Positions 15,961 to 30,994 of a stretch of 43,629 nucleotides of DNA are shown piece after piece. How positions within the stretch are numbered: the stretch's first letter is position 1; every line of letters starts with the position of its first letter. The stretch is from Bacteroidales bacterium (GTDB lineage Bacteria; Bacteroidota; Bacteroidia; Bacteroidales; UBA932). The stretch covers positions 1 through 43,629 of the forward strand of contig JAFZZW010000082.1 in NCBI GenBank assembly GCA_017615615.1, written 5' to 3'. The position numbers and the translations under genes are program-made. The notes beneath the pieces are model-generated. The model worked only from the letters and a program-made list of their open reading frames with translations. It was not told where the DNA came from and searched no databases.

Positions 15961-16755
15961 TCAGAAAGAGAAAACATACCCCACGCCGGCAATGGTGTTG
16001 AGGGCGCGGTCCCATGTGAAGCTCTTGAGTAAGGTGCCGTCTTTGCTGACGTCGAGGTTCTTGTCGTAGCAGTAGTCCTCCATGACGTAGAAATCCAGGG
16101 CGTGACGTTTGCTGAGCTTCCATTCTGCGCCGAGGCAGGCGCGGATGCGGTTGAAGTATGTGTCGCCGTAGCCTCCGAACGAGTAGTTGCCGTATTGCTG
16201 GCTGGAGGTGCTCCAGGTGGCGTTGACGTTGGGGTCGTTGAATACGTTGCGAACCTCCGCGAAGATGTACGGCTCCACCGGCTTCCAGCCCTTGTAGGTC
16301 GCTTTGATGCGCGATTTGAGGGTGAGGGGGTCGGCGTTTTCCTGGAAGGGATTGAGGGACTCGGTCTTGTGCGTCCAGCGGAAGGTCTCCTTGATGGAGA
16401 AGTTCCAGTCGCCGGCCTTGAGAGTGTATCCCAGCTGGGCGCTTAGCCTGTGGCGGGGATTCCAGCCGCTCTTTACACCCTGATGATACATATAGCTGTA
16501 GCTCAGGCCGGCCTTGAGCCCAAAGGGCATTTTGTAGCTGATTCCTACGGTGCCGGTGTGGCGGCCTATCGCCGACAGCTTGTCCCTTGTGCGGAGTTCG
16601 TACTCCGCCTCCAGGTGCAGGCCCTTGGCGAGTCTCCAGTTCAGGCCCAGGCTGGTGCGGGTCTGGAAGTCGTACGTGAGTGTGTTCGCCGTACCCTGGG
16701 CGGCGGCGCACAGCGGCATTACGGCCGAGGCCAGCAGGATTAGCAATCGTTTCAT
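15961..16755 (-). CDS. DUF2490-family outer-membrane beta-barrel-like protein
   Basis: A 264-residue exported protein with signal peptide MKRLLILLAS ending at about residue 19 (CAAAQ). The mature part alternates polar and aromatic residues in strands typical of small beta-barrels ('RTSLGLNWRLAKGLHLEAEY', 'GVGYVFSF' as the C-terminal strand with terminal Phe). This resembles DUF2490 proteins. The ATG at 16755 is preferred because it starts the signal peptide and follows a GGAG sequence. It lies four bases after the stop of the DUF4956 gene, so it is the last gene of a four-gene minus-strand operon. Role inferred: outer-membrane component of that cassette. Confidence 0.8.
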   Translation of the reverse strand: MKRLLILLASAVMPLCAAAQGTANTLTYDFQTRTSLGLNWRLAKGLHLEAEYELRTRDKLSAIGRHTGTVGISYKMPFGLKAGLSYSYMYHQGVKSGWNPRHRLSAQLGYTLKAGDWNFSIKETFRWTHKTESLNPFQENADPLTLKSRIKATYKGWKPVEPYIFAEVRNVFNDPNVNATWSTSSQQYGNYSFGGYGDTYFNRIRACLGAEWKLSKRHALDFYVMEDYCYDKNLDVSKDGTLLKSFTWDRALNTIAGVGYVFSF

Positions 16756-16759
16756 ACTC

Positions 16760-17527
16760 CTATTGTTCCACAAAATCCTTTGCCCTGGTGAGGGTGCCGA
16801 TCGTGGCGGCTTCCCCCTTCCCAAGTGTGTAATAAATCTTGATGTAGGCGGCGTCACGCAGGAAATCCACGTGCCCGACCTCCAGGGAATTCACCTTCAC
16901 GCCGACGCGTTTCTCGATGTCCGCTATGAGCTCGGAGCGCTTTTCCGGAACGATGAGGTCGATGCGGTCGTAGAGAATCAGTTTGGTAGCTGTGTGTTTG
17001 AGCCAGCGGCCTCCTTCCAGCACCCAGATCAGGCAGACTATCAGGAGGTTGGAAAGTATCAGCACACATGTTGAACCAAGGGAGAGCTCATAATGGGGAT
17101 TTGCTCCTGCCGCGTCCGCAAGGTGATACAGCGGTGCAAGTCCGTTGACGGCGGCTATCGCGATGATGACGAACAGGTAGGTCATCTCCCGGATCGGAAC
17201 CGTCTCCGTGCGGTAGCGGATTACGCCGAAGATGGCGAAAAGGCCGAGGGTGAGGCCGACGCCCACCGCCGCGTTGCCCATCATGTACAGGAGCAGCAGC
17301 ATGGCCGACGAAAACACCATGAAGGTGAAATAATAATCGCGCCGGCGGCTCTTGCGGTAGTAGAAGAACTGGACTATCAGCCAGCATACTATTAGGTTGA
17401 GCAGGAACCTGATGGCAAGCTCCGATATGCTCTGTGACGTGATCATCATGGCGTCCGTAATGGCCTGTACGTCGATGACGTCTTCGTCGGCGAGGTTGAA
17501 TTCGCCCAGTTCGTCCGGTCCAATCAT
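16760..17527 (-). CDS. DUF4956-family inner-membrane protein
   Basis: A 255-residue protein with four hydrophobic segments at about residues 38-60, 65-85, 88-105 and 110-130 plus one near 150-170, then a soluble C-terminal tail. The conserved 'GLTLGLFAIFGVIRYRTETVPIREMTYLFVIIA'-type region, split here as GLFAIFGVIRYRTE and 'VPIREMTYLF', is the DUF4956 hallmark. DUF4956 genes commonly sit next to VTC-domain genes in bacteria. That is the case here: the start overlaps the VTC gene's stop by four bases. It is probably the membrane partner of the VTC protein; its biochemical activity is not established. Confidence 0.88.
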   Translation of the reverse strand: MIGPDELGEFNLADEDVIDVQAITDAMMITSQSISELAIRFLLNLIVCWLIVQFFYYRKSRRRDYYFTFMVFSSAMLLLLYMMGNAAVGVGLTLGLFAIFGVIRYRTETVPIREMTYLFVIIAIAAVNGLAPLYHLADAAGANPHYELSLGSTCVLILSNLLIVCLIWVLEGGRWLKHTATKLILYDRIDLIVPEKRSELIADIEKRVGVKVNSLEVGHVDFLRDAAYIKIYYTLGKGEAATIGTLTRAKDFVEQ

Positions 17528-18321
17528 ATCAATCGTTTGTTAATCTGTTTCTCTATGAGTCTTATCTTTGTCTTGAAGCGTCCGGATTTGACGGACGGGT
17601 CGGTAAGCGCCACTCCTATACAGTACTTGCTTACTCTCAACGGCTTGACACGCCTGTCCAGCAGTATTGCCTTCATTCCGCTGCCGGCCCTTCCGTCCTG
17701 CTTGACCTCGATGACGACTCCGTCCCGGAGCGAGGCCTGCCTGCCGGTACGGAGGTTGGTGAAGCATACCGACGAGTCGAGGGTTATCCTTTCCGTCATT
17801 GCGGGGTTGACCAGCGTGATGCGGCGGAACAGGGTTTCCAGGGAAGGGGAGAGCTCGCCGGCGCTGAAGGCCGAGTGGGAGGAGAGGTACGAGCAGGCGC
17901 CGGCGTTCCCGCGGAAATCGCGGAAATCCTCCTCCGGGATGCCTGTGCGTTTCTTTTTTGTGCGCCCGTGGTTGTTCTTGAGCTTGATTTCAAGGAATGC
18001 GGCCCCGGATGACATGTACTCCCGTGTGCGGACTTTCTGGCGGGTGAGGCGGCGGTTGTGGTGGTCGAGGTACATGCGGAGACCCGGGGTGTCGAAGTAG
18101 ATGGAATCGTATCCGGCGACCTTGGATCCTTCTGTCTCCAGCGCCCGGTAGCCCGCCTCGGCGGCGTCGGAAAGGATTTCCGCAAGGGTGCGTTCGTCCG
18201 TGAGGTATTTGGTGTCGATGCGGTTGAGTAGCTTTACGGAATCCATCTCCCCGAGGGTGATGGACCCGATCCGCTGCAGCTGGGGCAGGTTTTCAAGCGT
18301 TATGTGCTCTCTCTCAGGCAT
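17524..18321 (-). CDS. VTC-domain polyphosphate polymerase-like protein
   Basis: A 265-residue soluble protein with the VTC (triphosphate-tunnel) fold known from the yeast vacuolar transporter chaperone, which makes polyphosphate from ATP. Residues corresponding to the tunnel lining are present: Arg34 and Lys38 (NRIDTKY), Arg98 and Arg100 (KVRTREY), Glu111 and Lys113 (FLEIKLK), Glu205 and Lys207 (VVIEVKQ) and the Ser231-Lys232 pair (RVSKYCIG). No SPX domain and no membrane segment are visible, so regulation and membrane anchoring must come from partners, probably DUF4956. It overlaps the upstream YD-like gene by eight bases and DUF4956 by four. Polymerase activity is inferred from the residues. 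Confidence 0.87.
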   Translation of the reverse strand: MPEREHITLENLPQLQRIGSITLGEMDSVKLLNRIDTKYLTDERTLAEILSDAAEAGYRALETEGSKVAGYDSIYFDTPGLRMYLDHHNRRLTRQKVRTREYMSSGAAFLEIKLKNNHGRTKKKRTGIPEEDFRDFRGNAGACSYLSSHSAFSAGELSPSLETLFRRITLVNPAMTERITLDSSVCFTNLRTGRQASLRDGVVIEVKQDGRAGSGMKAILLDRRVKPLRVSKYCIGVALTDPSVKSGRFKTKIRLIEKQINKRLI

Positions 18322-18727
18322 CTTCCGTGATGTACTCGAACACTTTTATGGTTTTGAGACGCCCTCTGGCGTCGTAGGTGTACTGGGTTTTCTTGCGCCC
18401 GAATTCGTTGTATTCGAACTTCTTGACACTGTGGAGCTTGTTGCGGTCGTCGTAAACGAGCTCGCGGCTGACCTTGCCGCCGGCTCCGTATTCGTAGCGC
18501 TTGCGCCATTTCTGGCCCTTGGCGGAGTATTCTATCTCTTCCACCTTCTTGCCGTCGGCGTTGTATGTGGTCTGGTGGTCCAGGACGCGGGCGTTGGACC
18601 GGGCATCCGTATTCCACTCCTTGATTACAAGGTTCCTCTTGTTGATCTTGGGAGCATCCTGCTCCTGTGCGGACGCGCCCAAGGCCGTAAGCAGCACCGC
18701 AGCTGCGATCAGAATCATTCTTTTCAT
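18314..18727 (-). CDS. Small secreted protein with YD-like repeats
   Basis: A 137-residue exported protein with a signal peptide ending near GASAQ. The mature part carries short tandem units of the form 'EYSAKGQ', 'EYGAGGKV', 'VYDDRNKL', 'EYNEFGRK', 'TYDARGRL', which resemble the YD repeats of Rhs-like or wall-associated proteins and bind carbohydrate or form beta structure. No enzyme motif is visible. The ATG at 18727 is preferred over a TTG five codons upstream because it begins the signal peptide. Its end overlaps the VTC gene start by eight bases, so it is the first gene of the VTC cassette. Function unknown. Confidence 0.75.
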   Translation of the reverse strand: MKRMILIAAAVLLTALGASAQEQDAPKINKRNLVIKEWNTDARSNARVLDHQTTYNADGKKVEEIEYSAKGQKWRKRYEYGAGGKVSRELVYDDRNKLHSVKKFEYNEFGRKKTQYTYDARGRLKTIKVFEYITEDA

Positions 18728-18795
18728 GACGGGACCGGTCAAAACAATTATAAAGCCAAAAATGCAAAAAATAAACGAAAACGCGAAAATAATCG

Positions 18796-18803
18796 TATAT
18801 TTA
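18796..18803 (+). promoter_or_regulatory. -7 element upstream of rubredoxin
   Basis: TATATTTA, four bases before the rubredoxin ATG, with one mismatch to TAnnTTTG. It is the only promoter-like element seen before the long shikimate run and could drive the genes through 28588. Confidence 0.45.
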
Positions 18804-18807
18804 CGTC

Positions 18808-18945
18808 ATGAAGTATATTTGCACAGTTTGCGGCCATGTATATGACGAGGCCGTCGAAGGAAAGAAATTCGAGGATCTTCCGGAAGATTGGGTATGCCCT
18901 CTCTGCGGAGTCGGAAAAGACCTTTTCGAGCCGGAGGAGGCTTAA
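18808..18945 (+). CDS. Rubredoxin, short (45-residue) form
   Basis: A 45-residue one-iron electron carrier. Both Cys-x2-Cys knuckles are intact: CTVCG (Cys5, Cys8) and CPLCG (Cys30, Cys33). Between them '[18 protein letters not shown]' is shorter than the usual rubredoxin, which has a loop of about 8-10 extra residues (DPDNGI...GT) before 'FEDLPDDW'. A 45-residue loop-deleted rubredoxin is known from Desulfovibrio, so this can be functional. The next gene begins three bases after its stop, and a GGAGGAGG tract inside the rubredoxin 3' end provides that gene's ribosome binding site. Electron partner unknown. Confidence 0.93.
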
Positions 18946-18948
18946 GAC

Positions 18949-20196
18949 GTGAAGTCCATTGAAGACGCGCGGCTCGGGATCCGGGCCGTGGATAAGGATA
19001 TTGCCGCTCTCTTCGGGCGGCGTATGCGTCTTGTCGCCGCGCTCGCCCGCATCAAGGACGCCAGGGGCCTTCCTGTGCGGGACCCTGAGCAGGAACGGCG
19101 CGTGCTTGAGCAGGGTGCGGACGATATCGGCGACCCTGCCCTCAGGGATTATTATCTCCGTCTTCTCAATGAAGAAATGGCCCTCTCCCGGGAGTATCAG
19201 GAAGAGCTGCTGGGACTTGTCCCGGGCGTTTTCTTCGCTCCTCTCACGGATGCGGCGAAGTATTTCAACCTCTCCCGCAAAGTCCTCGTGGTCACGGAAC
19301 CCGGCGTGCCGTCCCAGTATCCGGAGGCCATCCTCCAGGCCTGCCCCGGCGGCTCGCTACTCACCGTTCCCGGCGGCGAATCCGGCAAATCCATGGACGG
19401 CGTCCAGACCATCCTTCAGGAACTGCTCCGTCTGGGATTCACCCGCGACGACGCCATAGTCGCCGTGGGAGGCGGAGTCATCGGCGACATGGCCGGATTC
19501 GCCGCAGCCTGCTATATGCGCGGAATAGATTTTTACAACGTGCCCACTACGCTCCTGTCGCAGGTGGATTCTTCCGCGGGTGGCAAAACCGCCGTCAACC
19601 TTTGCGGCGTCAAGAATATAGTTGGCGCCTTCCACCAGCCCTCCGGGGTGCTGATAGATACCGGAACCCTCGGGACCCTGAGCCCCAGGCTTTTCGCCGA
19701 AGGCATGGCGGAACTGGTCAAGATTGCCGCTGCTTGCGACGCTTCACTTTTCGGACGCATCGAGCGCAGCGCCTGTCTCCGGGACGATATAGACGGTCTG
19801 ATACGTGACGCCCTTGCCGTCAAGATGTCCATTGTCCGCCGAGACCCTCTGGAGAACGGCCTCCGCGCCGTGCTCAACTTCGGCCATACCGTCGGCCATG
19901 CCATAGAGGCGGCGTCCGGGGGACGTTTCTACCACGGCGAATGCGTCGCCATGGGCATGCTCTACACCAGTTACGGAGAGGCCCGGGAGCGGCTTGAGGC
20001 CCTTCTGAAGCGTCTCGGACTGCCCGTGGAAGACCCGTTCGACGCCGATACCCTCATGTCCTTCGCCTGCAGCGACAAGAAGAGGCGGGCCGAAGGGTTC
20101 AGGATCGTGGAGGTCTCCCGCATAGGGGACTTCTCCTTCCGTACCGTAAGCGCGGACACCCTTCGCGCCATAATAGTCAAGCGTAAGAGCCAATGA
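18949..20196 (+). CDS. aroB: Chorismate mutase (AroQ) - 3-dehydroquinate synthase (AroB) fusion
   Basis: A 415-residue protein with two domains. Residues 1-85 are an AroQ-type chorismate mutase helical domain (IRAVDKDIAALFGRRMRLV, ARIKDARGLPVRDPEQE), which would convert chorismate to prephenate. Residues about 88-415 are 3-dehydroquinate synthase: 'GGGVIGDMAGFAAACYMRG', 'VPTTLLSQVDSSAGGKTAVN', 'EGMAELVKIAA', 'NFGHTVGHAIE' and 'YHGECVAMGM', keeping the metal-binding Glu and two His. It catalyses the second shikimate step from DAHP. The start is GTG, supported by GGAGGAGG about 9 bases upstream (18932-18939). The end overlaps aroC by four bases. Fusion of these two activities joins an early and a branch-point step. 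Confidence 0.92.
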   Translation: MKSIEDARLGIRAVDKDIAALFGRRMRLVAALARIKDARGLPVRDPEQERRVLEQGADDIGDPALRDYYLRLLNEEMALSREYQEELLGLVPGVFFAPLTDAAKYFNLSRKVLVVTEPGVPSQYPEAILQACPGGSLLTVPGGESGKSMDGVQTILQELLRLGFTRDDAIVAVGGGVIGDMAGFAAACYMRGIDFYNVPTTLLSQVDSSAGGKTAVNLCGVKNIVGAFHQPSGVLIDTGTLGTLSPRLFAEGMAELVKIAAACDASLFGRIERSACLRDDIDGLIRDALAVKMSIVRRDPLENGLRAVLNFGHTVGHAIEAASGGRFYHGECVAMGMLYTSYGEARERLEALLKRLGLPVEDPFDADTLMSFACSDKKRRAEGFRIVEVSRIGDFSFRTVSADTLRAIIVKRKSQ

Positions 20197-21281
20197 AAAA
20201 CACCATAGGAACGAGTGTGACGCTCACCCTGGCAGGGGAGTCCCACGGCAGCGGGATTGTCGCCGTCCTGGACGGCATGGCCCCCGGAATCCCGGTGGAC
20301 GAAGCGTTCATAGGGATGCAGCTTTCCAAGCGCCGCCCGCGCGGGGAGGAGGAGACCGCCCGCCGGGAGGGCGACGCTTTCCGCATCGTCAGCGGCGTGC
20401 TCGACGGACGCACCACCGGGGCTCCGGTCGCCATCGTCATTCCCAATACCGACGCGCGCAGCGCCGATTATGATTCGACAGCCGGTCTCGCCCGCCCGGG
20501 GCATGCCGATTATGCCGTCCATGCCAGATACGCCGGTTGCGAAGACCTTCGCGGCGGCGGACACTTCAGCGGTCGTGTTACCGTCGGGATCGTGGCCGCC
20601 GGAGCAATAGCGCTCGCCGCTCTCAAGGCCAAAGGCATCCGCATCGGCACGCATATCCTTTCCTGCGCAGGCGTGTGCGACGAACCATTCGCCATTGACC
20701 CTTCCGCCCAGCTGGACATGCTCGAAGGGCTCGATTTTCCCGTACTGTCGGATGTGGATACTCAAATGAAGGCGCGCATCCAGCAGGCCCGGGAGGCGGG
20801 CGATTCCGTCGGAGGCGTCATCCAGACGGCGGTTACAGGACTTCCGGCAGGCGTGGGCGAGCCATGGTTCGGCTCGGTCGACGGAGTTATCGCCAACGCC
20901 ATTCTTTCCATCCGCGGTATCAAGGGTATAGAGTTCGGCAGCGGCTTCGGCCTGGCCGGAATGAAGGGCTCGGAGGCCGGCGACGAGTGGCGCCTTACGC
21001 CCGGCGGCCCCCGTACCCTTACCAACCACAACGGCGGCATCAACGGAGGCCTCACCAACGGTATGCCTTTGGTTTTCAATGCCGTAGTCAAGCCCACCCC
21101 TTCCATCTCCATACCCCGGCAGACTGTCTCGCTGGACGGGAGCAGGGAGGCTTCCATAGAGATAAAAGGCCGGCACGATCCCGCCATAGTGAGGCGTGTC
21201 TGCGTAGTGGCTACATCCATGACGGCCCTGGCAGTCTGCGACCTGCTGGCCCTTAGATACGGAACCGATTACCTGCGATAG
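20193..21281 (+). CDS. aroC: Chorismate synthase
   Basis: A 362-residue enzyme that converts EPSP to chorismate with reduced FMN. Family signatures are 'GTSVTLTLAGESHGSGIVAV' at the start, the basic 'RRPRGEEETARREGD' segment, the 'HADYAVHARYAGCEDLRGGG' segment with 'HFSGRVTVGIVAAGAIA' after it, and the late 'GLTNGMPLVFNAVVKPTPS' and 'GRHDPAIVRR' motifs. Length is normal. Its ATG overlaps the aroB stop (ATGA), and the aroE-aroK fusion begins one base after its stop, so it lies in the middle of the shikimate operon. Confidence 0.97.
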   Translation: MKNTIGTSVTLTLAGESHGSGIVAVLDGMAPGIPVDEAFIGMQLSKRRPRGEEETARREGDAFRIVSGVLDGRTTGAPVAIVIPNTDARSADYDSTAGLARPGHADYAVHARYAGCEDLRGGGHFSGRVTVGIVAAGAIALAALKAKGIRIGTHILSCAGVCDEPFAIDPSAQLDMLEGLDFPVLSDVDTQMKARIQQAREAGDSVGGVIQTAVTGLPAGVGEPWFGSVDGVIANAILSIRGIKGIEFGSGFGLAGMKGSEAGDEWRLTPGGPRTLTNHNGGINGGLTNGMPLVFNAVVKPTPSISIPRQTVSLDGSREASIEIKGRHDPAIVRRVCVVATSMTALAVCDLLALRYGTDYLR

Positions 21282-21282
21282 A

Positions 21283-22518
21283 ATGACTTACGGACTGATC
21301 GGCGAGCGCCTGGGACACAGTTTCTCACGCATAATCCACGAGTATCTCACCGGGGATCCTTACGAATTGCGGGAACTGCGTCCGGATGAACTGGGACCGT
21401 TCCTTCGCAGCGAGCCGTTCCGCGGCATAAACGTCACGATTCCTTACAAACAGGCTGTGATCCCGTATCTGGACGAGCTGGCTCCGTCTGCGCGTCTGGT
21501 AGGTGCGGTAAACGCCGTGCTGCGTGGCAGGGACGGTTGCCTGACTGGATACAATACCGATTTTGACGGTTTCCTCGCCATGGCCGCTGCCGCAGGAGTG
21601 CAGTTCGACGGGGCCGACGTGGTCATACTTGGAGCAGGCGGTGCAGCCAAGGCGGTAGAGGCCGCCGTCCGCAGCGCAGGCGCCTCGAAAGTGGCATTTG
21701 CCGTGCGGCACGACTTCGGTCCGGACCGCCTGCCGATCGACAGGCCGGAGGCCTTTGCCGGGTTCGACGTCCTGGTCAATGCCACCCCTGTGGGAATGTA
21801 TCCGGACATAAAGGCCAAGCCATTCGATATCAGCGCTTTACCCCGCCTTCGCGGAGTGCTGGACTGTATCTACAATCCCATCTGCACCCAGCTGGTGCTC
21901 GACGCTCGCGAACGCGGAATCCCTGCCGCCGGCGGCCTTATGATGGTAGTCGCACAGGCTGTGAAGGCGGCCGAACTGTTCCATGACATGAAGTTCCCGG
22001 AAGATACCGTCTTGAAGACGTACCGCCACATGCTTGCAGCCAGGCGCAACATAGTCCTCACCGGTATGCCATCCAGCGGCAAAACCACTGTGGGCAGGTT
22101 GCTCGCGGCAGAGCTTGGCCTGCGTTTTACCGATACGGACGATGTGGTCCGGACCCTGTCCGGCCTTGAGATTCCGGAATTGTTCGCCCGCGGGGGAGAG
22201 GAGGAATTCCGGCGCTGGGAAGCCGTAGCCATAGAGTCTCTGGCCGCCGAACAGGGGCTGGTGATTGCGACCGGAGGCGGTGCCGTCCTTTCTCCGGACA
22301 ACGTGCGCGAGCTGCGCCGTAACGGCATACTGGTGTTCCTGGACAGGGACCCGGCGCTCCTTCAGCCTTCCCCGGACAGGCCGCTTTCCCGCAGCCGGAG
22401 GGCGCTGGAGGCATTGTACGCTGAAAGGTTGCCGGCATACCTTAAGTCGGCGGACATCCATATTGAAAACAACGGCACCCCTGAGGATGCCGCAGGCAAG
22501 ATAATAGACAAAGTATGA
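21283..22518 (+). CDS. Shikimate dehydrogenase (AroE) - shikimate kinase (AroK) fusion
   Basis: A 411-residue bifunctional protein. Residues 1-245 are shikimate dehydrogenase: 'IGERLGHSFSRIIHEY', catalytic Lys56 (NVTIPYK), 'NTDFDGF' with Asp93, the NADP loop 'VVILGAGGAAKAVEA', and 'VNATPVGMYP'. Residues about 255-411 are shikimate kinase: Walker A 'LTGMPSSGKTTVGRLLA', 'TDTDDVVRTLSG' with Asp, 'FRRWEAVAIESL' and 'VIATGGGAVLS'. It would catalyse two consecutive steps, dehydroshikimate to shikimate to shikimate 3-phosphate. The start is one base after aroC; the stop overlaps the next gene by four bases. AroD and AroA activities are not encoded in the window. Confidence 0.94.
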   Translation: MTYGLIGERLGHSFSRIIHEYLTGDPYELRELRPDELGPFLRSEPFRGINVTIPYKQAVIPYLDELAPSARLVGAVNAVLRGRDGCLTGYNTDFDGFLAMAAAAGVQFDGADVVILGAGGAAKAVEAAVRSAGASKVAFAVRHDFGPDRLPIDRPEAFAGFDVLVNATPVGMYPDIKAKPFDISALPRLRGVLDCIYNPICTQLVLDARERGIPAAGGLMMVVAQAVKAAELFHDMKFPEDTVLKTYRHMLAARRNIVLTGMPSSGKTTVGRLLAAELGLRFTDTDDVVRTLSGLEIPELFARGGEEEFRRWEAVAIESLAAEQGLVIATGGGAVLSPDNVRELRRNGILVFLDRDPALLQPSPDRPLSRSRRALEALYAERLPAYLKSADIHIENNGTPEDAAGKIIDKV

Positions 22519-23546
22519 ATCTTCAATTCAACCGGGAACTCTTCACACCCGAGGCTCTCAAGGAGATGTATCCGGTACCGCCCGATGCGGCCCGATGCAA
22601 AGAGGCCAACGACAAGGCCATACGGGAGGTTCTTGACGGCACTTCCCGCAAGCTGCTGCTTGTCATCGGCCCCTGCAGCGCCGACCGCGAGGATGCCGTG
22701 CTCGACTATATATCCCGTCTCAGACCGCTTCAGGAAGAGGTCTCCGACAAGATAGTCATAGTCCCGCGCCTGTATTCCAACAAGCCGCGTACGACCGGCG
22801 AAGGTTACAAGGGAATGCTCCATCAGCCCGACCCTTCCGCCCGCCCGGACCTCTTCAACGGCCTTGTGTCCAGCCGCCTGCTTCATCTTCATGCGCTTGA
22901 GCGGACGGGCTTCTCCTGCGCCGACGAGATGCTCTATCCGGAAAACCATATCTACATGTCCGACCTGCTGTCGTACGTGGCAGTAGGAGCCCGCAGCGTG
23001 GAGAACCAGCAGCACCGCCTGGTGGCAAGCGGACTCGACATCCCGGTCGGAATGAAGAATCCCACCGGCGGAGACCTTGTGGTGATGGTCAATTCCATAC
23101 GCGCCGCCCAGCACGGGCATTCTTTCATCTATCGCAACTGGGACGTCCACAGCACCGGCAATCCCCTTGCCCACGCCATCCTGAGGGGCTATGTGGACAG
23201 CCGCGGCGTGTCCCATCCCAATTACCATTATGAAGACCTGCGCCGTCTGGCCGACCTGTATGCCGGAGGCGGGCTCGTCAATCCCGCAGTCATAGTGGAC
23301 TGCAACCATTCCAATTCCGGCAAGCGCTTCGAGGAGCAGGGCCCGATCGCCCTGGACGTGCTCCACAACGCCAGAACCAACAGCACCGTAGGCGCGCTGG
23401 TCAAGGGACTGATGATAGAATCGTATCTGGAAGACGGCTGCCAGGGTCCAGGAGGACAGGTGTACGGCCAGTCTATCACCGACCCTTGCCTCGGCTGGGA
23501 GAAAACGCGGGCGTTGGTCCTTAAAATCGCAGAATTATGGCAGTAA
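22515..23546 (+). CDS. 3-deoxy-7-phosphoheptulonate (DAHP) synthase, class I
   Basis: A 343-residue enzyme joining phosphoenolpyruvate and erythrose 4-phosphate to DAHP, the first shikimate step. It belongs to the E. coli AroF/G/H type. Metal ligands are visible: Cys54 in 'IGPCSADRED', His in 'VDCNHSNSGKR', Glu in 'MIESYLEDG' and Asp in 'SITDPCLGWE'. The PEP-binding 'VPRLYSNKPRTT' and 'GMKNPTGGDLVVMV' segments are present. Which amino acid inhibits it cannot be told from the sequence. The ATG overlaps the aroE-aroK stop by four bases, and the following radical SAM gene begins ten bases before its stop. Confidence 0.95.
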   Translation: MNLQFNRELFTPEALKEMYPVPPDAARCKEANDKAIREVLDGTSRKLLLVIGPCSADREDAVLDYISRLRPLQEEVSDKIVIVPRLYSNKPRTTGEGYKGMLHQPDPSARPDLFNGLVSSRLLHLHALERTGFSCADEMLYPENHIYMSDLLSYVAVGARSVENQQHRLVASGLDIPVGMKNPTGGDLVVMVNSIRAAQHGHSFIYRNWDVHSTGNPLAHAILRGYVDSRGVSHPNYHYEDLRRLADLYAGGGLVNPAVIVDCNHSNSGKRFEEQGPIALDVLHNARTNSTVGALVKGLMIESYLEDGCQGPGGQVYGQSITDPCLGWEKTRALVLKIAELWQ

Positions 23547-24769
23547 TAAAGTATCAGCCTTTCTATTCCCATGCTTCCCGGGTGTACAACCTCCCGGGGT
23601 TCGGGCCCGGGCGGATCGACAGGGAGTATCTGCGTTCGCTGGGAGTTGCGGCGGAGCCTTCCGGGAGCACGCTCCAGGGACTGGAACGCGGCAGCGAGGT
23701 GTTTGCCCGGAGGTTCTCGGAGCGGACGCTCATCCCTCTTACAGAATTCCGCCTGGAAGAGGCGGATATCGATTCCGTCGTACCGGAAATCCATAATTAC
23801 ACCGGCCGCTGCCCGGCGCTCACTTACGAAATCAACCCTGTACGGGGCTGCGGCGTCGGCTGCCAGTATTGCCTGGTGACGGACGGGGTGCACGAGCAGG
23901 AACTGGTCGCGATCGACAATTACCATCTGTACGTCCGGACGCTGCTGGAGCGTTTCAACGGCCCCGGGAGCGACAACGCCAACCATTATTACTACTTCTC
24001 GCCCAAGACGGAGGCCTTCCAGGAGGCGACGCTGCTTAGCGGTATCGCCCATCGTGTGCTGCAGGAGTTCATCGACCACTTCGAGCGTTTCCCCGCTTCC
24101 CGTGCGAGGCTGTTCGTGGCGTCCAAGGCCGGGGTCAGGCATCTGGAATACCGTTGGAACGGAGTGTCCGTGCTGGAGCTTTTCTCGCGTCTGAGCGACC
24201 GCATGCAGTTCAACACCAGCGTATCCATCATGCCGGATGCATTCCGGGACATACTTGAACCGTATGCGGCGCCCCTGAGCGAGAGGCTCGCCGCCGTGAA
24301 GCTGTGCCGTGACGCCGGCATACAGTCCAACTCCGCCCTTGTCCAGCCGATTGTCATTCCATACCTCACCAGGGAGCATATAGAGGAGTTCTTTACGGCT
24401 CTGAGCGGGGCTGGAATAATCAACTACAAGCCGGAATTCCTTACGGCCTGCATGGAGAACCTGGCTATGCTGGGGCAGTATCTGGGCTATTTCGACAAAG
24501 GGCTCGAAAAAGAACTCTACGATGCTTATCTGAGCCCGTCCAACGCCGACCACCTCAAGCAGCGCGGCCGCACCGCACCCGACAGGGCCATGAGCGTGGA
24601 CGCCATCCGCCGCATGAGCGCTTTCACCGACACGCTTGGCATGAGCGTCAGCATCTGCTACTGGGTGCGCAAGCAGCTGGGAATCAGCGAGGAAGATATC
24701 CCGCTCGTGAACCGCAACGGCTTCCAGTGCCTCGGATACCAAAGACGCCTGTTCCCGGATGTACTCTGA
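23537..24769 (+). CDS. Radical SAM protein of unknown substrate
   Basis: A 410-residue protein with a Cys-x3-Cys-x2-Cys cluster-binding motif (Cys105, Cys109, Cys112 in RGCGVGCQYCL), which binds a 4Fe-4S cluster and S-adenosylmethionine. The region after it ('YYYFSPKTEAFQEATLLSGI', 'FNTSVSIMPDAF', 'NSALVQPIVIPYL') recalls the spore-photoproduct-lyase-like branch of radical SAM enzymes, but I do not recognise a characterised subfamily. No second cluster (SPASM) motif is evident. The start ATG lies inside the DAHP synthase gene in another frame, and the end overlaps the ATP-grasp-like gene by 11 bases. No peptide precursor gene is visible nearby. Confidence 0.85.
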   Translation: MAVIKYQPFYSHASRVYNLPGFGPGRIDREYLRSLGVAAEPSGSTLQGLERGSEVFARRFSERTLIPLTEFRLEEADIDSVVPEIHNYTGRCPALTYEINPVRGCGVGCQYCLVTDGVHEQELVAIDNYHLYVRTLLERFNGPGSDNANHYYYFSPKTEAFQEATLLSGIAHRVLQEFIDHFERFPASRARLFVASKAGVRHLEYRWNGVSVLELFSRLSDRMQFNTSVSIMPDAFRDILEPYAAPLSERLAAVKLCRDAGIQSNSALVQPIVIPYLTREHIEEFFTALSGAGIINYKPEFLTACMENLAMLGQYLGYFDKGLEKELYDAYLSPSNADHLKQRGRTAPDRAMSVDAIRRMSAFTDTLGMSVSICYWVRKQLGISEEDIPLVNRNGFQCLGYQRRLFPDVL

Positions 24770-25913
24770 CCTGGCTCCATATTACCACCGCTGGTACCAT
24801 GAGCGTCCGGTCCTGATAGGGCCGGAGCGGCGCGACGAGTTGAGGCGGCTCGCCTCCGTGCTCCTCAAGTGCGCCCGGCATCTGCCGGAGGTGTGGCAGG
24901 ATTTCCTGCCTCTGGGAGAAAGGGAAAAGGATATACTTGCAGAACAGAGCCGCGTGCCGCTGCGTCTGGGTACGTGGAGGCCCGATTACATAGTGTCGCA
25001 GGACGGTTCGCTCCTGCTTTGCGAGATTACATCCCGCTTCTTCGCCCACGGAATCTTCATGTCGTGGTTCAGCCACGATCGGGCGGAACGTTTCATGCAG
25101 CGTTTCCCCGGCGTGCAGTGGGACGACCGCTTCGGCGACACGATGCGGAAGATGCTGGAAATCACCGGCGGACGGCCTCGGATGTACGTGCTCAAGAGTG
25201 CGGACAAAACGGGCGAAATACGCCTCTACAAGCGTTTCTACGAAGCCCACGGCATGAATGTCACGGTACTTGAGTATCCGGAGGTTGAGGCCAGGCGCGA
25301 CGAATGGGCCCAGCCGGACTGCTTCCTTGTGAGCGGGCTCAACCAGAATGACATAATGTCCTTGAGCGACAGGACTTTGCGTGACATGATAGAACTGGGA
25401 ATGTACAGCGACTTCCGCAATGTGTTCCTGGTCCACGACAAGCGTTTCATGAGTCTGTGGTTCAACGATTCCTTCACCTCGGGCTGCCTGACTCCGGAGG
25501 AGACGTCGTTCCTGCGTGCGCATGCCATTCCCACATGCGACGCTGCCGGCATGCTTCCTCTGGCCCTGAAGAACCGGAGGTCCTTCATCATCAAACCTTG
25601 CCGCCTTGGCAAGAGCGAGGGCGTGCTTGCCGGCCCTTTGTGCTCAGAGGGGAAGTGGAAAAAGGCCCTGGAGCACCCGGAGGGGTATATTATCCAGCCT
25701 TTCGTCACTCAGAAGACTTTCCCTGTCCGCTGGGAAGGCCGCCGATACAATGATTACATGTGCGGGATGATGCTCTGCGTGGACGACGAGTATTTCGACT
25801 CTGGCTATTTCCGCTGTTCCAGCCTTCCCGTTACCAATGTCGGGGACGACCGCAAAGCCGCCGTCATCCATAGTCCGTCTGAAGAGTTGGTCCCTTATTG
25901 CGACGTCCTATGA
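24759..25913 (+). CDS. ATP-grasp-like protein
   Basis: A 384-residue protein I read as a divergent, possibly circularly permuted ATP-grasp enzyme. Evidence: 'RPDYIVSQDGSLLLCEITSR' (residues 74-93) resembles the substrate-binding region of such ligases; 'FIIKPCRLGKSEGVLAG' (276-292, Lys279 and Lys285) resembles the ATP-binding lysine region; 'GYIIQPFV' (309-316) matches the strand with the adenine-contacting residues; and 'YFRCSSLPVTNVGDD' (350-364) resembles the Arg-containing metal-site strand. ATP-grasp enzymes form amide or related bonds through acyl-phosphates. The start overlaps the radical SAM gene by 11 bases; the end overlaps the WbqC gene by four. Family assignment is moderate; substrate unknown. 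Confidence 0.6.
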   Translation: MYSDLAPYYHRWYHERPVLIGPERRDELRRLASVLLKCARHLPEVWQDFLPLGEREKDILAEQSRVPLRLGTWRPDYIVSQDGSLLLCEITSRFFAHGIFMSWFSHDRAERFMQRFPGVQWDDRFGDTMRKMLEITGGRPRMYVLKSADKTGEIRLYKRFYEAHGMNVTVLEYPEVEARRDEWAQPDCFLVSGLNQNDIMSLSDRTLRDMIELGMYSDFRNVFLVHDKRFMSLWFNDSFTSGCLTPEETSFLRAHAIPTCDAAGMLPLALKNRRSFIIKPCRLGKSEGVLAGPLCSEGKWKKALEHPEGYIIQPFVTQKTFPVRWEGRRYNDYMCGMMLCVDDEYFDSGYFRCSSLPVTNVGDDRKAAVIHSPSEELVPYCDVL

Positions 25914-26608
25914 CCATCAGCGCCAATCAGCCCTACTTCATGCCGTATCTGCCTTACTGGCAGCTGATCGACTGCGCAGACGTTTTCCTGGTCAGCGACG
26001 ATTATTCTTTCCGCAAGGGCTCCTGGATACCCCGCAACCGCATCCTTGTCGGAGGACGGGTGCAGTTTTTCCGCATGGAAGTGGAACATCAGAGCAGCCA
26101 CCGGCTGATCATGGATACGGAGCTGGTCCCGTTCGACCCTGCGGCCAAGCTGAGGACCCTTGAGATGGCATATCACCGCGCACCCTGCTTCGTGGACGGA
26201 TATGCACTTTGCGAGCGTGTGCTGCGCTTCCCGGGGAGAAATCTGTGCGACTTTCTGACAGCCTCGATAAGGCAGGTCTGCGATTACCTGTATATCACTA
26301 CGTCCATCGGGTTCACCTCCGGCATCCCCGGGAACAGCGCGCTGAAGTTCGACGAACGCATCTATCATTTCTGCCGTCATTTCGGGGCTGATACATACGT
26401 AAACGCCATCGGCGGACAGGGATTGTACAGCTTTGACGCTTTCCGCAGCCATGGCCTGAGGCTCGGTTTTCTCAGGAGCGAAATCCCGCCGTACACGCAG
26501 GGCGCGGGCGCTTTCGTCCCGGGCCTTTCCGTAATAGACGCCATAATGAACGTCCCGCGCGAACAGCTTAGGGACATGTTGGGCAGGAGGAGTTTCATCT
26601 ATGGTTAA
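25910..26608 (+). CDS. WbqC-family protein
   Basis: A 232-residue protein with the WbqC-like pattern: 'ISANQPYFMPYLPYWQLIDCADVFLVSDD' at the start (recognisable as 'QPYFMPYLPYWQLI'), 'GSWIPRNRI', and the later 'YHFCRHFGADTYVNAIGGQG' and 'YTQGAGAFVPGLSVIDAIM'. WbqC genes occur in O-antigen and surface polysaccharide clusters next to DegT-type aminotransferases and glycosyltransferases, as here; the reaction is not firmly established. The ATG at 25910 overlaps the upstream stop as ATGA. A TTG four codons upstream is a poorer start. The end overlaps the glycosyltransferase by eight bases. Confidence 0.83.
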   Translation: MTISANQPYFMPYLPYWQLIDCADVFLVSDDYSFRKGSWIPRNRILVGGRVQFFRMEVEHQSSHRLIMDTELVPFDPAAKLRTLEMAYHRAPCFVDGYALCERVLRFPGRNLCDFLTASIRQVCDYLYITTSIGFTSGIPGNSALKFDERIYHFCRHFGADTYVNAIGGQGLYSFDAFRSHGLRLGFLRSEIPPYTQGAGAFVPGLSVIDAIMNVPREQLRDMLGRRSFIYG

Positions 26609-27503
26609 GGTCAGCGTAATATGCCTCACATACAACCATGCGGGGTGGATCCGGGACGCCCTGGAGGGCTTCGTCGCCCAGCGTACGCCGTGGCCGATCG
26701 AGGTGCTTGTGCATGACGACGCTTCCACCGACGGCACGGCGGACATCGTCCGGGAGTATGCCTCCCGCTATCCGGAAATCATCCGCGCCTTCTGCTCCCC
26801 GGAGAACCTTACGTCGAAGGGAGTCGTGATCTCGCGGGATGTGCTGTATCCCCATATCCGCGGGGAATTCGTATCCCTGTGCGAGGGGGACGATTACTGG
26901 ACCTCGCCGGACAAGCTCCGGCTGCAGGTGGAGGCCCTCGAGGCCCATCCGGAGGCCGATATCTGCGCCCATGCGGTACGCAGGCTCAGGCCCGACGGAA
27001 AGGTTATCTACGACGCCCCTTTTCACCGCGACACCGTCATCCCGGCGTCGGAAGTCATACTCGGCGGCGGGGGATACGTCGCCACTTCTTCGCTCATGTG
27101 CCGCCGCGCCGCATACATGCTGCAAACCCCGATGCGGGAGGCGCTCTACAGCGACTATACCCTTCAGATCCAGGGGGCGTTGCGGGGCGGGATGGTGTAT
27201 CTGCGCGACTGCATGTCGGTTTACCGCCAGGGACTTCCCGGCTCATGGACCAGCAGGCATCACGGCGCCGCCCACTCCGGATACAGGATATTGATACGCA
27301 ACATGCTCCGCAAGCTCGACGAATATACTGCGGGGAATTTTTCCAAGGCCGTCATCCTGCGCACCCGCCTTTACGATTCCGACGACATGGCCTTCAAAGG
27401 GCAGTTCCTTGCGATGCTCGCGCCGTCGGAGCTGTCTGTAACGGCATATCAGATAAAAAGAAACCTGCGCAAACTGTGGATGAATATCCTCTACCGCTTA
27501 TGA
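26601..27503 (+). CDS. Family 2 glycosyltransferase
   Basis: A 300-residue inverting GT-A fold enzyme. It has 'VSVICLTYNHAGWIRDAL' at the nucleotide-binding N-terminus, 'VLVHDDASTDGTADIV' (Asp39-Asp40), and the metal-binding 'LCEGDDYWTSPDKL' (Asp97-Asp98). The C-terminal part is helical and basic. It would transfer a sugar from a nucleotide donor; donor and acceptor are unknown. Its start lies eight bases inside the WbqC gene and its stop overlaps the DegT-type gene by four bases, so the three genes are translationally linked. Confidence 0.9.
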   Translation: MVKVSVICLTYNHAGWIRDALEGFVAQRTPWPIEVLVHDDASTDGTADIVREYASRYPEIIRAFCSPENLTSKGVVISRDVLYPHIRGEFVSLCEGDDYWTSPDKLRLQVEALEAHPEADICAHAVRRLRPDGKVIYDAPFHRDTVIPASEVILGGGGYVATSSLMCRRAAYMLQTPMREALYSDYTLQIQGALRGGMVYLRDCMSVYRQGLPGSWTSRHHGAAHSGYRILIRNMLRKLDEYTAGNFSKAVILRTRLYDSDDMAFKGQFLAMLAPSELSVTAYQIKRNLRKLWMNILYRL

Positions 27504-28588
27504 GTATTAAGGTTACACGTGCTTCGCTTCCGTCCTTCGGGGAGTTCTGCGAGGAGATACGCCCGCTGTGGGACAGCCATATCCTTACCAACATGGGCCC
27601 GCTGCACCAAAGGTTCGCAGCCGCCCTGAGGGAGTATCTGGGCTGTGCCGGCATTACCTTGTTCTCCCATGGACATTCTGCCCTGGAAGCGGCCCTGAGG
27701 GCGCTCCGGCTGCCTGCGGGAAGCCGCATCATCACTACGCCGTTCACCTTTGCCAGCACCGTCCATGCGATTTCGCGCCTCGGTTTCGAGCCGGTTTTCT
27801 GCGACGTGCTGCCATCGGACGGCACCCTTGACCCGTCGCGCCTGGAGGGGCTGATCGATTCCCGGACGAGCGCCGTTCTGCCGGTGCATGTATATGGCAA
27901 CGCCTGTGATGCCGATGCCATCGGGGCGATGGCTTCACGTCATGGGCTGAAGGTGGTATATGATGCCGCGCATGCTTTCGGAGTGCGTCTGGACGGCGCC
28001 CCTCTGGTCTGCCGGGGGGATGCGTCGGTCCTTAGCTTTCACGCCACCAAGGTGTTCAATACCGTTGAAGGCGGGGCAGTGTGCTTTACGGACGGGTCGC
28101 TCCGGCAGGCGCTGGACGACGAAAAGAACTTCGGCATACGCGACGAAGTCACTTGCGCCGCCGCCGGAGGAAATGCCAAGATGAACGAGCTGCAGGCCGC
28201 CATGGGCCTCTGCAACCTCCGGCACATAGACGATGAATTGCATGAACGGGAGAGGCTCGACGCCGTTTACCGCCGCATGCTTGCCGGTGCGGTGGATTTT
28301 TTCGAAGTGCGTTCCGGAGCCACCCGCAATCATTCATATATGCCGGTGCTGCTGCGGGACGGCGCGCAGAGGGATGCGGTGTACGACGCCCTGCTGGCGG
28401 CCGGTGTAAATGCCCGCAAATATTTCTGGCCGCTGGTCTGCGATGCGGAGCCTTACAGGGGCTTGCCTGCAGACGTCCCCGTCGCCCGCGGCCTGTCGGA
28501 GCGCGTCCTTGCGCTTCCGCTTTATCCCGGGTTGCCGGAAGAAGAAGTCGTGAGGATAGGCGAATGTTGCAAGAAAACAGTTGCATAA
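27500..28588 (+). CDS. DegT/DnrJ/EryC1/StrS-family aminotransferase
   Basis: A 362-residue PLP-dependent enzyme of the sugar aminotransferase family. The PLP lysine is Lys184 in 'SFHATKVFNTVEGGAV'; Asp155 in 'VVYDAAHAFGV' pairs with the PLP nitrogen; 'IITTPFTFASTVHAI' and 'VLPVHVYGNACD' are also typical. Members usually aminate nucleotide-linked 3- or 4-keto-6-deoxysugars; dehydratases are also known. The presence of WbqC and a glycosyltransferase fits amino sugar biosynthesis. Its ATG overlaps the upstream stop as ATGA. It is the last gene of the tightly packed run; the next start is 30 bases on. Confidence 0.92.
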   Translation: MSIKVTRASLPSFGEFCEEIRPLWDSHILTNMGPLHQRFAAALREYLGCAGITLFSHGHSALEAALRALRLPAGSRIITTPFTFASTVHAISRLGFEPVFCDVLPSDGTLDPSRLEGLIDSRTSAVLPVHVYGNACDADAIGAMASRHGLKVVYDAAHAFGVRLDGAPLVCRGDASVLSFHATKVFNTVEGGAVCFTDGSLRQALDDEKNFGIRDEVTCAAAGGNAKMNELQAAMGLCNLRHIDDELHERERLDAVYRRMLAGAVDFFEVRSGATRNHSYMPVLLRDGAQRDAVYDALLAAGVNARKYFWPLVCDAEPYRGLPADVPVARGLSERVLALPLYPGLPEEEVVRIGECCKKTVA

Positions 28589-28618
28589 GCTGATTACCGA
28601 TTTTATAAGCAAGTATTG

Positions 28619-28918
28619 ATGAAAGTACGCATAACTGCAGTCCGCCAGACCGTCTATCCCGATCTGTCGGCACGATACGAGAACCCCATCGAACATGCCT
28701 GCGACGTAACAGTCGGACAGGAGTGGATTTCCGTGGACGGCAAGTGCCCGGACGGAATGTGTCCCGCTGCCTGGTATTCCATGCGGGAGTATGTTGAATC
28801 GCTGTCCAGGGGAGAGGGCAATTTCTTCGACGGCTGGATGAAGGATCCGATGAGTGCGATGATCAGTTGCAACGACGGATTCCGTCCGTTCAGCTTCTAT
28901 CTGGAACTTATCGGTTGA
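28619..28918 (+). CDS. TIGR04076-family small protein
   Basis: A 99-residue protein matching the TIGR04076 pattern: 'VRITAVRQTVYPDLSARYEN', 'CDVTVGQEWISVDGKCPDGM', 'CPAAWYSMREYVESLSRGEG', and an ending with 'CNDGFRPFSFYLE'. The family is small, cysteine-containing and uncharacterised. The ATG at 28619 follows 30 bases after the DegT-type gene, so it may be the last gene of that transcript or a separate one. Its end overlaps the convergent folD gene by 11 bases. Confidence 0.8.
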   Translation: MKVRITAVRQTVYPDLSARYENPIEHACDVTVGQEWISVDGKCPDGMCPAAWYSMREYVESLSRGEGNFFDGWMKDPMSAMISCNDGFRPFSFYLELIG

Positions 28919-29756
28919 TACGTGCCTCGAAACACTCCAGGGTGTTTTCCATAAGCATCGCGACGGTCATCGGGCCCACGCCTCCGGGAACGGGGGTTAT
29001 CCAGGCGGCGACGTCTTTGGCGGATGCGAAATCGACGTCTCCGCCCAGAGTCCCTTCTGCGGTGCGTGTGATGCCGACGTCAATGACTATGGCGCCCGGC
29101 TTGACCATGCTGCCGTCCACAAGCGAACGCTTTCCGGTGGCTACGACAAGAATATCGGCCTCCCGGGTGAGGGACTTGAGGTCCCGGGTGTGGGAATGGG
29201 CTATGGACACGGTGGCGTTGCGGTCCAGCAGGAGCTTGGCGACCGGCTTGCCGACTATGTTGCTCCTTCCGACTACCACGGCACGTTTGCCCTCTATGGA
29301 CACGCCGGTGCTGTCTATCAGCCGGATTATGCCTTTTGGGGTGCAGGGGATGGTGCAGGGGCGGCCCAACTGCAGGGAGGATACGTTTGCGGGATGGAAA
29401 CCGTCAACGTCCTTGGCGGGGCTGATGGCGTCCAGGACGCGGTCGGGGTCGATCTGCGGAGGAAGGGGAAGCTGTACCAGGATGCCGTCGACGGAAGGGT
29501 CCGCGTCGAGTGCGGAAACTGCGGCAAGCAGTTCATCCTGGGGGACGCCGGCGGGAAATTCCAGCTCCTTCCCCTGGATCCCTACCAGCTCTGCAGCCTT
29601 GATCTTGGCCCTGACGTAGGTGCGGCTTGCCGGGTTGTCTCCGACAAGCACCACGGCAAGGCATGCCTTGCGTCCCGCCGCCTGAGCGAGCCTTTCCGCC
29701 CGGGGTATCAGGTCTGCCATGACCCGCCCGGCTATGGCTTTGCCGTCGATTGTCAT
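28908..29756 (-). CDS. folD: Methylenetetrahydrofolate dehydrogenase/cyclohydrolase
   Basis: A 282-residue bifunctional enzyme that oxidises 5,10-methylene-THF to methenyl-THF and hydrolyses it to 10-formyl-THF. It shows 'SRTYVRAKIKAAELVGIQ' (the catalytic Tyr and Lys), 'DGILVQLPLP', 'PAKDVDGFHPAN', 'CTPKGIIRLI', 'VVGRSNIVGKPVAKLLL' (NADP loop) and 'DVGITR'. The start ATG at 29756 overlaps the stop of the C11 protease-like gene by four bases, so the two are co-transcribed on the minus strand; longer upstream reading is the C11 gene in another frame. Confidence 0.97.
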   Translation of the reverse strand: MTIDGKAIAGRVMADLIPRAERLAQAAGRKACLAVVLVGDNPASRTYVRAKIKAAELVGIQGKELEFPAGVPQDELLAAVSALDADPSVDGILVQLPLPPQIDPDRVLDAISPAKDVDGFHPANVSSLQLGRPCTIPCTPKGIIRLIDSTGVSIEGKRAVVVGRSNIVGKPVAKLLLDRNATVSIAHSHTRDLKSLTREADILVVATGKRSLVDGSMVKPGAIVIDVGITRTAEGTLGGDVDFASAKDVAAWITPVPGGVGPMTVAMLMENTLECFEARINR

Positions 29757-30955
29757 TGGATCAGTCCTATTGCCTTGTTCCAGGCGAGCGTCTTGTAGAA
29801 ATCGTTGAGCTCGGTGAGGTTGGGATACGGTTTGTACATGGACAGGCCGCACATGTCTTCCATATAGAGACTATATTGATAGCCTGCGAAAAATTCCTCC
29901 GTATGACGGGAATAGATGATGGCGGCGTCGAGGGCCTCGTTGAGCTCTCTGAGCTCATGCTTGCTGATGCCGGCGGTTACATATATGTCGCGCAGGTCGA
30001 AGAACCAGTGGAGGTCGTTGTAGAAGTAACGTTTGACGTTGTCGTGAGGAGTGGCGGCGATGGTGCTGCGGTATTTTCTTGTCAGGGCGCCGCACACTTG
30101 TGCCAGACGTTCCAGTTTGTTGCAGTTCAGAACGGTAACCGTAGCGGACTGGTTACTGCCGCTCAGGGAGTTGTAATGGTCGAAGTATTCCTGAGCCACT
30201 TTTACTATGTCGGGGCTGCTGACGTTCATGATGAGCGGGGCTAAAGTCTGGTACATCAAACCGTCCGACATGATTTCCGTAGGGGAGAAGAGAAGCAGGT
30301 CGCATATTCCCCGCAACTCATATGCGGTTTCGATACAGCCCATCAGGCATGCGTCCAGAATCAGGTAATCCAATTTGTAAGGGATGGCCTCCGAGAGGCG
30401 GTTGACGTCGATACCGGAATCGTCGAAGTTTTCGATGCAGAGTTCGCGTGTTTCCGGCAGGGACGCGTTGAAGATCGATGACGACTTTTCTTCGTAGCCG
30501 GCCGGCAGCCATCCTTTGCCGTGGGAGGATACGATCATGCCGTAATGGGGGGCCGGGAACATATTCTGGATGTCCGTGAGGACTTTGTTCATCACTTCGG
30601 GGGTGGAACTGAGGTCGCTTGACGGATATCTTATCAGGGTGTCGCGGCGGTAGGTTCCGTTGGGGTCGCGCCATGCGCGGAAAAGGACGGGCTCGGTGGG
30701 AATCTTGTATTTGCCGTACTCTGCCGGCATATGGGAATAGACGAGGAATACGTCGCCGCTTTTCAGGGTGGGGAGATAGCCGGAGCAGAACTCTTTAAGG
30801 TCTTCCGAGATGGAAGGGGAGAGGTTGTTCATCGCGGGGGCGTACATGATGGTTACGCGGTACGGTTCCGGCGTTTCGAGCTCGAACACCGAGCACGAGG
30901 CGAGGACGAGGGCGGCTGCAGCCGTCAGGATCGGCTTTATCAGAGTCTTTGTCAT
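29753..30955 (-). CDS. Clostripain-family (C11) cysteine peptidase lipoprotein
   Basis: A 400-residue lipoprotein (lipobox ends at Cys21 in LVLASC) of the clostripain/C11 clan. The catalytic dyad is visible: His in 'MIVSSHGKGWLPAGY' and Cys in 'LILDACLMGCIETAYEL'. C11 peptidases of gut Bacteroidales cleave after Arg or Lys and are self-activated. No obvious autoprocessing site is asserted here. It begins seven bases after a TACCTTTG promoter element, divergent from xerD, and overlaps folD at its end by four bases. Substrate unknown. Confidence 0.9.
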   Translation of the reverse strand: MTKTLIKPILTAAAALVLASCSVFELETPEPYRVTIMYAPAMNNLSPSISEDLKEFCSGYLPTLKSGDVFLVYSHMPAEYGKYKIPTEPVLFRAWRDPNGTYRRDTLIRYPSSDLSSTPEVMNKVLTDIQNMFPAPHYGMIVSSHGKGWLPAGYEEKSSSIFNASLPETRELCIENFDDSGIDVNRLSEAIPYKLDYLILDACLMGCIETAYELRGICDLLLFSPTEIMSDGLMYQTLAPLIMNVSSPDIVKVAQEYFDHYNSLSGSNQSATVTVLNCNKLERLAQVCGALTRKYRSTIAATPHDNVKRYFYNDLHWFFDLRDIYVTAGISKHELRELNEALDAAIIYSRHTEEFFAGYQYSLYMEDMCGLSMYKPYPNLTELNDFYKTLAWNKAIGLIQ

Positions 30956-30962
30956 AATCGTA

Positions 30963-30970
30963 CAAAGGTA
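30963..30970 (-). promoter_or_regulatory. -7 element for the C11-folD operon
   Basis: TACCTTTG on the minus strand, seven bases before the ATG at 30955; matches TAnnTTTG and lies back to back with the xerD element at 30984-30991. Confidence 0.6.
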
Positions 30971-30983
30971 ATGTTTTTTTTGC

Positions 30984-30991
30984 TAATTTTG
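30984..30991 (+). promoter_or_regulatory. -7 element for xerD
   Basis: TAATTTTG three bases upstream of the GTG chosen as the xerD start. The expected transcription start is at or beside that GTG. Confidence 0.6.
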
Positions 30992-30994
30992 TGT

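Follow-up and report, generated by a model that had tools for sequence, protein, structure and literature searches.

The window analysed here is the whole 43,629-nucleotide contig JAFZZW010000082.1 of assembly GCA_017615615.1, a Bacteroidales bin labelled G000 (other genomes and loci carry labels beginning with G and L, respectively), and the ten genes at 18808-28588 on its forward strand very probably make up a composite operon with two modules of separate function, an aromatic module that ends with 3-deoxy-D-arabino-heptulosonate 7-phosphate (DAHP) synthase, and a surface-glycan cassette that begins with a radical SAM enzyme. An earlier note on this DNA had described a ten-gene run with hardly any gaps, two fused shikimate proteins (chorismate mutase (CM) with dehydroquinate synthase, CM-AroB, and AroE-AroK) and downstream genes of a glycan or amino-sugar character, together forming one operon-like unit; the run was confirmed, and the other points are supported. 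Its interpretation held in part: the proposed flow of chorismate, or of an aromatic derived from it, into a product of the radical SAM and ATP-grasp enzymes is unsupported, because the modules occur apart and the cassette elsewhere abuts efp or rhaT. The run is best read as two modules that were joined, not as a new pathway.

The distribution of the cassette was assayed by a named scan in which all loci were collected by their radical SAM gene, yielding 121 relatives, of which the best 80 were kept. Within these 80 loci the neighbours were ATP-grasp (77), WbqC (64), family 2 glycosyltransferase (GT2, 42), DegT (30) and shikimate genes (2), counts which are lower bounds because many contigs are short; the 78 loci in which no shikimate gene was seen nearby likewise include several on short contigs. 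The named carriers among the best 80 of 121 include rumen and gut bins labelled Bacteroidales, Fibrobacter, Lachnospiraceae, Ruminococcus and Coriobacteriaceae, labels that span Bacteroidota, Fibrobacterota, Bacillota and Actinomycetota, some of which may belong to mis-binned contigs. The radical SAM gene was found in 5 of 149 family genomes and in 33 of 300 genus genomes, the window's own genome being included in each count. In an all-against-all comparison across the 80 loci, other neighbour families occurred in 11 at the most, a number reached by a flippase-like family and by RhaT. The gene for elongation factor P (efp, EF-P) adjoins the cassette on the same strand in 6 loci, overlapping by 5 bases if the assigned start is taken, and rhaT does so in 11 loci at 10-14 bases; the efp set and the rhaT set each match a single clade in the radical SAM tree.

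In L092 and L094 the cassette has a polysaccharide flippase within it, and in L104 and L105 families of lipid-linked sugar transferases are close by, which indicates surface-glycan synthesis and makes such a role for the cassette likely, as judged from its neighbours. A periplasmic-binding-protein-like gene family was also seen near the cassette at L105:12685-13545 and L111:4890-5792 (PF12849, scanned in L105 only), and one of the 80 loci has a rubredoxin-like frame (L076:8559-8744, 53% identity) just 5' of the radical SAM gene in a locus without shikimate genes. A phage origin of the cassette was considered and rejected, as a tblastn search with the ATP-grasp protein gave zero matches among 50,697 phage records, other mobile elements not having been searched.

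Gene order was then read in 38 loci, namely the window, L158, L056 and L057, 26 further loci of the same genus and 8 loci of other genera, with the genus searches covering 300 genomes drawn out of a larger group. The cassette follows aro genes in the first four loci, and in L158 (genome G158) the ten genes stand in an order identical to that of the window, at protein identities of 73-94% and beyond what chance would give. None of the 26 further genus loci has the cassette beside its aro genes, two of them (L171 and L179) ending too near a contig end to be judged, so that shikimate genes without the cassette, a pattern which the earlier note had named beforehand as speaking against a shared pathway, do occur in relatives. 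AroE-AroK and the radical SAM gene are both present in eight genus genomes, and in five of these (G170, G174, G193, G194 and G338) they lie on different contigs.

The four loci with linked modules form one clade in the aro-gene tree (bootstrap 99) and one clade in a quick radical SAM tree (99 in the Shimodaira-Hasegawa-like approximate likelihood ratio test, SH-aLRT), which fits one joining event followed by vertical descent, and going by the two trees the linkage probably arose once, in this clade. The cassette would have come behind the aromatic genes in the ancestor of the four known loci, with read-through as the presumed mode of its expression, probably also for the related cassettes that follow efp and rhaT. 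In L056 the operon in front of the cassette has kept tyrA, and the genome of this locus, G441, has both prephenate dehydratase (PDT) and prephenate dehydrogenase (PDH), so the two modules could join without loss of the phenylalanine/tyrosine branches. A coupling of that loss to the gain of the cassette was rejected on the strength of L056/G441 and of G417, where the losses occur and the aro operon has no cassette next to it; the 33 radical SAM matches do not include G417, which may or may not have been part of the 300-genome draw. In L057, the cassette is joined directly after AroE-AroK and not after DAHP synthase.

Several observations weigh against a simple joining of two unrelated modules. 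The order inside the four-locus clade differs between the aro and radical SAM trees, and the aro-linked radical SAM gene of G158 (L158:6758-7890) is split between two frames, a second copy being present on another contig (G158:C139:782-1999). The GC content at third codon positions is 0.70-0.78 in the cassette genes and 0.69-0.74 in the aro enzymes, so that the cassette does not stand out and a foreign base composition, which was considered, is not visible by this measure. The linkage has outlasted much divergence, AroE-AroK of the window being 60% identical to that of L056 or L057, and such persistence could reflect selected co-expression. Finally, an aromatic building block is chemically possible, since Cp1B, the solved ligase that the ATP-grasp protein of the cassette matches (see below), and Cp2B accept aromatic amino acids (PMC12568646).

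The last point, together with the tight junctions, the linkage that all four loci of the clade have retained despite 40% divergence, and the failure to find any other chorismate consumer in G000, G158 and G419, would suit a single pathway in which the first five genes supply chorismate or prephenate as a building block of the cassette product. I consider such a pathway very improbable, given the 78 of 80 cassette loci with no shikimate genes in view, the five genus genomes that hold the modules on different contigs, the cassettes that abut efp or rhaT instead, and G417 with its equal losses and no cassette beside the aro operon. Tight operon structure alone is no proof of a common pathway or product, because the cassette follows the gene of an elongation factor, of a sugar permease or of DAHP synthase at a similarly short distance, and because the modules lie apart in five genomes. 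That the modules make different products and were nevertheless selected for joint expression, for example because both are needed at one growth stage, is unlikely: linkage does persist in four diverged loci, and a comparison of the window with G158 shows purifying selection in genes of either module, but a promoter-less cassette at the tail of an operon would stay put without such selection, and the junction to AroE-AroK in L057 means that a fixed partner is unneeded. An assembly or binning artefact that joined different genomes can be given hardly any credence. G000 is a bin of 72% completeness in 92 contigs (with one AroB match), and ten other genus members in one earlier sample have a more distant AroB of 38-43% identity, so the genus has at least two operon types, of which the window shows one; against an artefact stand the equal order of the ten genes in G158, the junctions of L056 and L057, which come from other assemblies, and the presence of this AroE-AroK type in 29 of the 300 genus genomes. 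AroE-AroK matches as such were found in 43 of the 300, 28 of them fused in a single frame, 1 (G194) in pieces over two contigs, and 14 covering the kinase part only.

Compared with its relatives, the aromatic module appears to be the resident aromatic operon of this part of the genus in an eroded form. The usual order in the genus is rubredoxin, CM-PDT (pheA), aroB, aroC, aroE-aroK, tyrA and DAHP synthase, where the gene preceding DAHP synthase is a prephenate dehydrogenase by NCBIfam, under the equivalog cut-offs. The operons in L160, L162-L165, L167, L177 and L182 have enzymes and order in common with the window, while in the window the PDT domain and tyrA are gone, CM is fused to AroB and the cassette is found at the tail; G158 likewise lacks the PDT domain and tyrA, and in both CM runs straight into AroB. 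Most steps to chorismate plus the step to prephenate are still encoded, as far as family assignments tell. The earlier note had concluded that the run is not a complete amino acid pathway, which agrees with the lack of PDT and PDH in the run and the failure to find either in the bin; AroA, which it had counted as absent, is present in G000 on a separate contig.

Rubredoxin heads 13 of the 18 CM-headed genus loci (window, L158, L160, L162-L169, L177 and L182). Chorismate synthase requires reduced flavin mononucleotide, for which the rubredoxin might be the electron source. In L168 and L169, aroB was not detected between CM-PDT and aroC.

The CM domain has kept the residues expected of a working enzyme. 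The active site of AroQ-class chorismate mutases comprises, in E. coli, R11, R28, K39, D48, E52 and Q88, and the equivalents of these six are identical in the window; the equivalent of R51 is Q, as it is in many CM-PDT relatives. The ratio of non-synonymous to synonymous substitution rates (dN/dS) between the window and G158 was 0.225 for CM and 0.183 for AroB, rough estimates at a dS of ~1, and at greater distance CM lay above AroB (0.37 vs 0.19 against L166, 0.45 vs 0.22 against L160). The notion of CM as a decaying remnant is unsupported, given the intact active site and a dN/dS near that of AroB in the rough comparison of window and G158, with CM less constrained than AroB over longer distances. 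G417 (L166) is also without a PDT domain and tyrA and has CM-AroB, and it groups elsewhere in the aro tree; CM and AroB share one frame in 7 of the 8 other-genus loci as well, which implies that CM-AroB fusions arose more than once or were exchanged. In genomes of genus g15 with CM-AroB, PDT was found in 2 of 7 and PDH in 6 of 7, so that CM can serve tyrosine there. Another genus of the family (L040-L045 and L047) has CM-AroB in one frame, and its near-complete genomes G051 and G124 have PDH, with PDT undetected. A search of the open-licence literature found no description of the CM-AroB fusion or of the cassette.

This leaves a CM in the window lineage that has no visible customer and yet retains catalytic residues and purifying selection between window and G158, which was unexpected. 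Of 9 genomes tested, 5 gave a PDT match and 5 a PDH match, and neither enzyme was found in G000, G158, G417 or G419. The same four genomes gave no match to Chorismate_bind (TrpE, PabB, MenF and kin), where the control recovered 14 of 14 with no genus relative serving as positive control, and none to type II dehydroquinase (DHquinase_II), where the control recovered only 7 of 14 and type I dehydroquinase was not searched. It is rather likely that PDT, PDH and TrpE/PabB/MenF lie in missing parts of the bins, or that an unsearched enzyme such as MqnA uses the chorismate: the four bins are 66-85% complete, the Chorismate_bind search covered four genomes with the control limits just given, and MqnA and replacements of PDT or PDH fell outside the search. 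On the other hand, all four genomes lack each of three families, the chance of missing one gene in all four being ~0.002 (0.28 x 0.15 x 0.17 x 0.34) if gaps are independent, and bins of one lineage may share gaps; PDT and tyrA are also absent from their usual place in the operon in the window, G158 and G417. That the shikimate pathway is retained to supply prephenate, or chorismate, to a reaction not yet known is a fairly unlikely alternative, and its consumer need not be the cassette, because the pattern also occurs in G417, whose aro operon is not flanked by a cassette.

Turning to the cassette proteins, Pfam backs nine of the ten gene identities in the run, and NCBIfam agrees where coverage exists; the remaining gene, called ATP-grasp-like in the earlier note, has zero Pfam or NCBIfam matches and was recognised through Cp1B (PDB 9cjn), the ATP-grasp amide ligase of E-64 biosynthesis, which bears out that call. 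The match to 9cjn rose from E=2.7e-6 with the single sequence to 4.9e-23 with 4 sequences and 2.5e-23 with 53, and the profile match spans both halves. R139, D141 and E163 of Cp1B correspond to R74, D76 and E89 in the window and N165 to T91, the numbering being matched by an inferred 15-residue offset, so three of four residues around the nucleotide are kept. Cp1B forms an amide from an epoxysuccinate and an amino acid (PMC12568646). An E-64-like pathway was rejected, since the ligase alone is in common: the oxygenase, decarboxylase and amide bond synthetase of the Cp1 cluster are absent from the ten genes, whose setting is a bacterial glycan context.

The radical SAM protein scored 34.3 bits with PF04055 (cut-off 29.5), and its C105, C109 and C112 (CX3CX2C) are invariant in 44 sequences, as are C92, C374 and C398. 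Its best family matches were weak ones of ~70 residues to Rv2578c (NF038135, E 2e-9) and PA0069 (NF033668, E 9e-9), and its 37 and 35 bits fall far short of the cut-offs, 430 and 360, so it belongs to neither family; the three extra invariant cysteines also set it apart from both. Its profile found no solved structure at E up to 0.1. Grasp-with-SPASM clusters for ribosomally synthesised and post-translationally modified peptides have a SPASM domain on the radical SAM protein and a precursor peptide gene. A cluster of this kind was rejected for the window, as no SPASM domain was found at E up to 0.001 (Pfam, NCBIfam) and the overlapping cassette junctions leave no room for a precursor gene, one elsewhere being possible.

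The WbqC protein scored 180.8 bits with PF08889 (cut-off 21.3), and sequence comparison with solved structures gave, at best, E 0.55 with the single sequence and 0.03 with a profile, both to unrelated proteins. Surface-polysaccharide genes of the WbqC family have DegT and GT2 beside them, as in the window, and the coupling of WbqC to a radical SAM gene was observed in a set of loci that this very gene had been used to collect. A putative role as glycine transferase has reportedly been proposed for WbqC; searches of the open-licence literature did not turn up the proposal. A scheme for the chemistry of the cassette as a whole can be offered tentatively: DegT would make an amino sugar, the Cp1B-like ligase would activate a carboxylate with ATP and form an amide, as is described for Cp1B, the radical SAM enzyme would modify the acyl or amino acid part, WbqC would help in transfer, and GT2 would add the sugar to a surface glycan.

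The ten frames are all open, and the successive junctions measure +3, -4, +1, -4, -10, -11, -4, -8 and -4 bases. The -7 promoter motif of Bacteroidota is TAnnTTTG. The promoter-like element TATATTTA that the earlier note had placed before the run is present, and relatives align a -7-like element at its site, TATATTTG in 5 of 6 and TATATTTA in the sixth (L158). Only 4 bases separate it from the rubredoxin ATG in the window, so the element may be weak or the start leaderless. The two-part motif TTTG/TAnnTTTG has 6 matches in the window and none within 18808-28588, and TAnnTTTG by itself occurs at 18814, within the rubredoxin gene. A sigma-70-like match was found at 24392, such matches numbering 5 in 16000-33000 against 5.6 expected, and terminator-like sites were close to chance (17 found, 14.5 expected). 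Elsewhere in the window, two tandem YitT/DUF2179 membrane protein genes at 7886-9722 overlap by 14 bases.

Table 1. Features of the composite operon and its flanks, in window coordinates.
Feature	Position	Strand	Basis
Candidate -7 promoter element TATATTTA	18796..18803	+	Aligned with TATATTTG in 5/6 relatives
Rubredoxin, head of aromatic operon	18808..18945	+	PF00301; in 13/18 CM-headed genus loci
Chorismate mutase-dehydroquinate synthase fusion (CM-AroB)	18949..20196	+	PF01817 (CM_2), PF01761 (DHQ_synthase), PF24621; CM residues
aroC, chorismate synthase	20193..21281	+	PF01264, TIGR00033 above cut-off
aroE-aroK fusion, shikimate dehydrogenase-shikimate kinase	21283..22518	+	PF08501, PF01202
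DAHP synthase (Pfam: DAHP synthase I), end of aromatic module	22515..23546	+	PF00793, TIGR00034 above cut-off
Radical SAM enzyme, start of cassette	23537..24769	+	PF04055; CX3CX2C invariant in 44 sequences
Cp1B-like ATP-grasp ligase	24759..25913	+	PDB 9cjn, profile E=2.5e-23
WbqC-family protein	25910..26608	+	PF08889, 180.8 bits
Family 2 glycosyltransferase (GT2)	26601..27503	+	PF00535
DegT/DnrJ/EryC1 aminotransferase, end of cassette	27500..28588	+	PF01041
TIGR04076-family gene, possibly same transcript	28619..28918	+	TIGR04076 above cut-off; 30-base gap after DegT

The analysis brings to light an uncharacterised cassette of a radical SAM enzyme, a Cp1B-like ligase and WbqC that occurs in many rumen and gut bins. 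The window lineage, in turn, keeps chorismate synthesis under purifying selection without a recognised user, which opens alternative prephenate metabolism to direct testing. If the pathway is indeed retained to feed a reaction not yet known, then these bacteria would have either an enzyme, so far undescribed, that uses prephenate, or a substitute for PDT or PDH that is not homologous to it.

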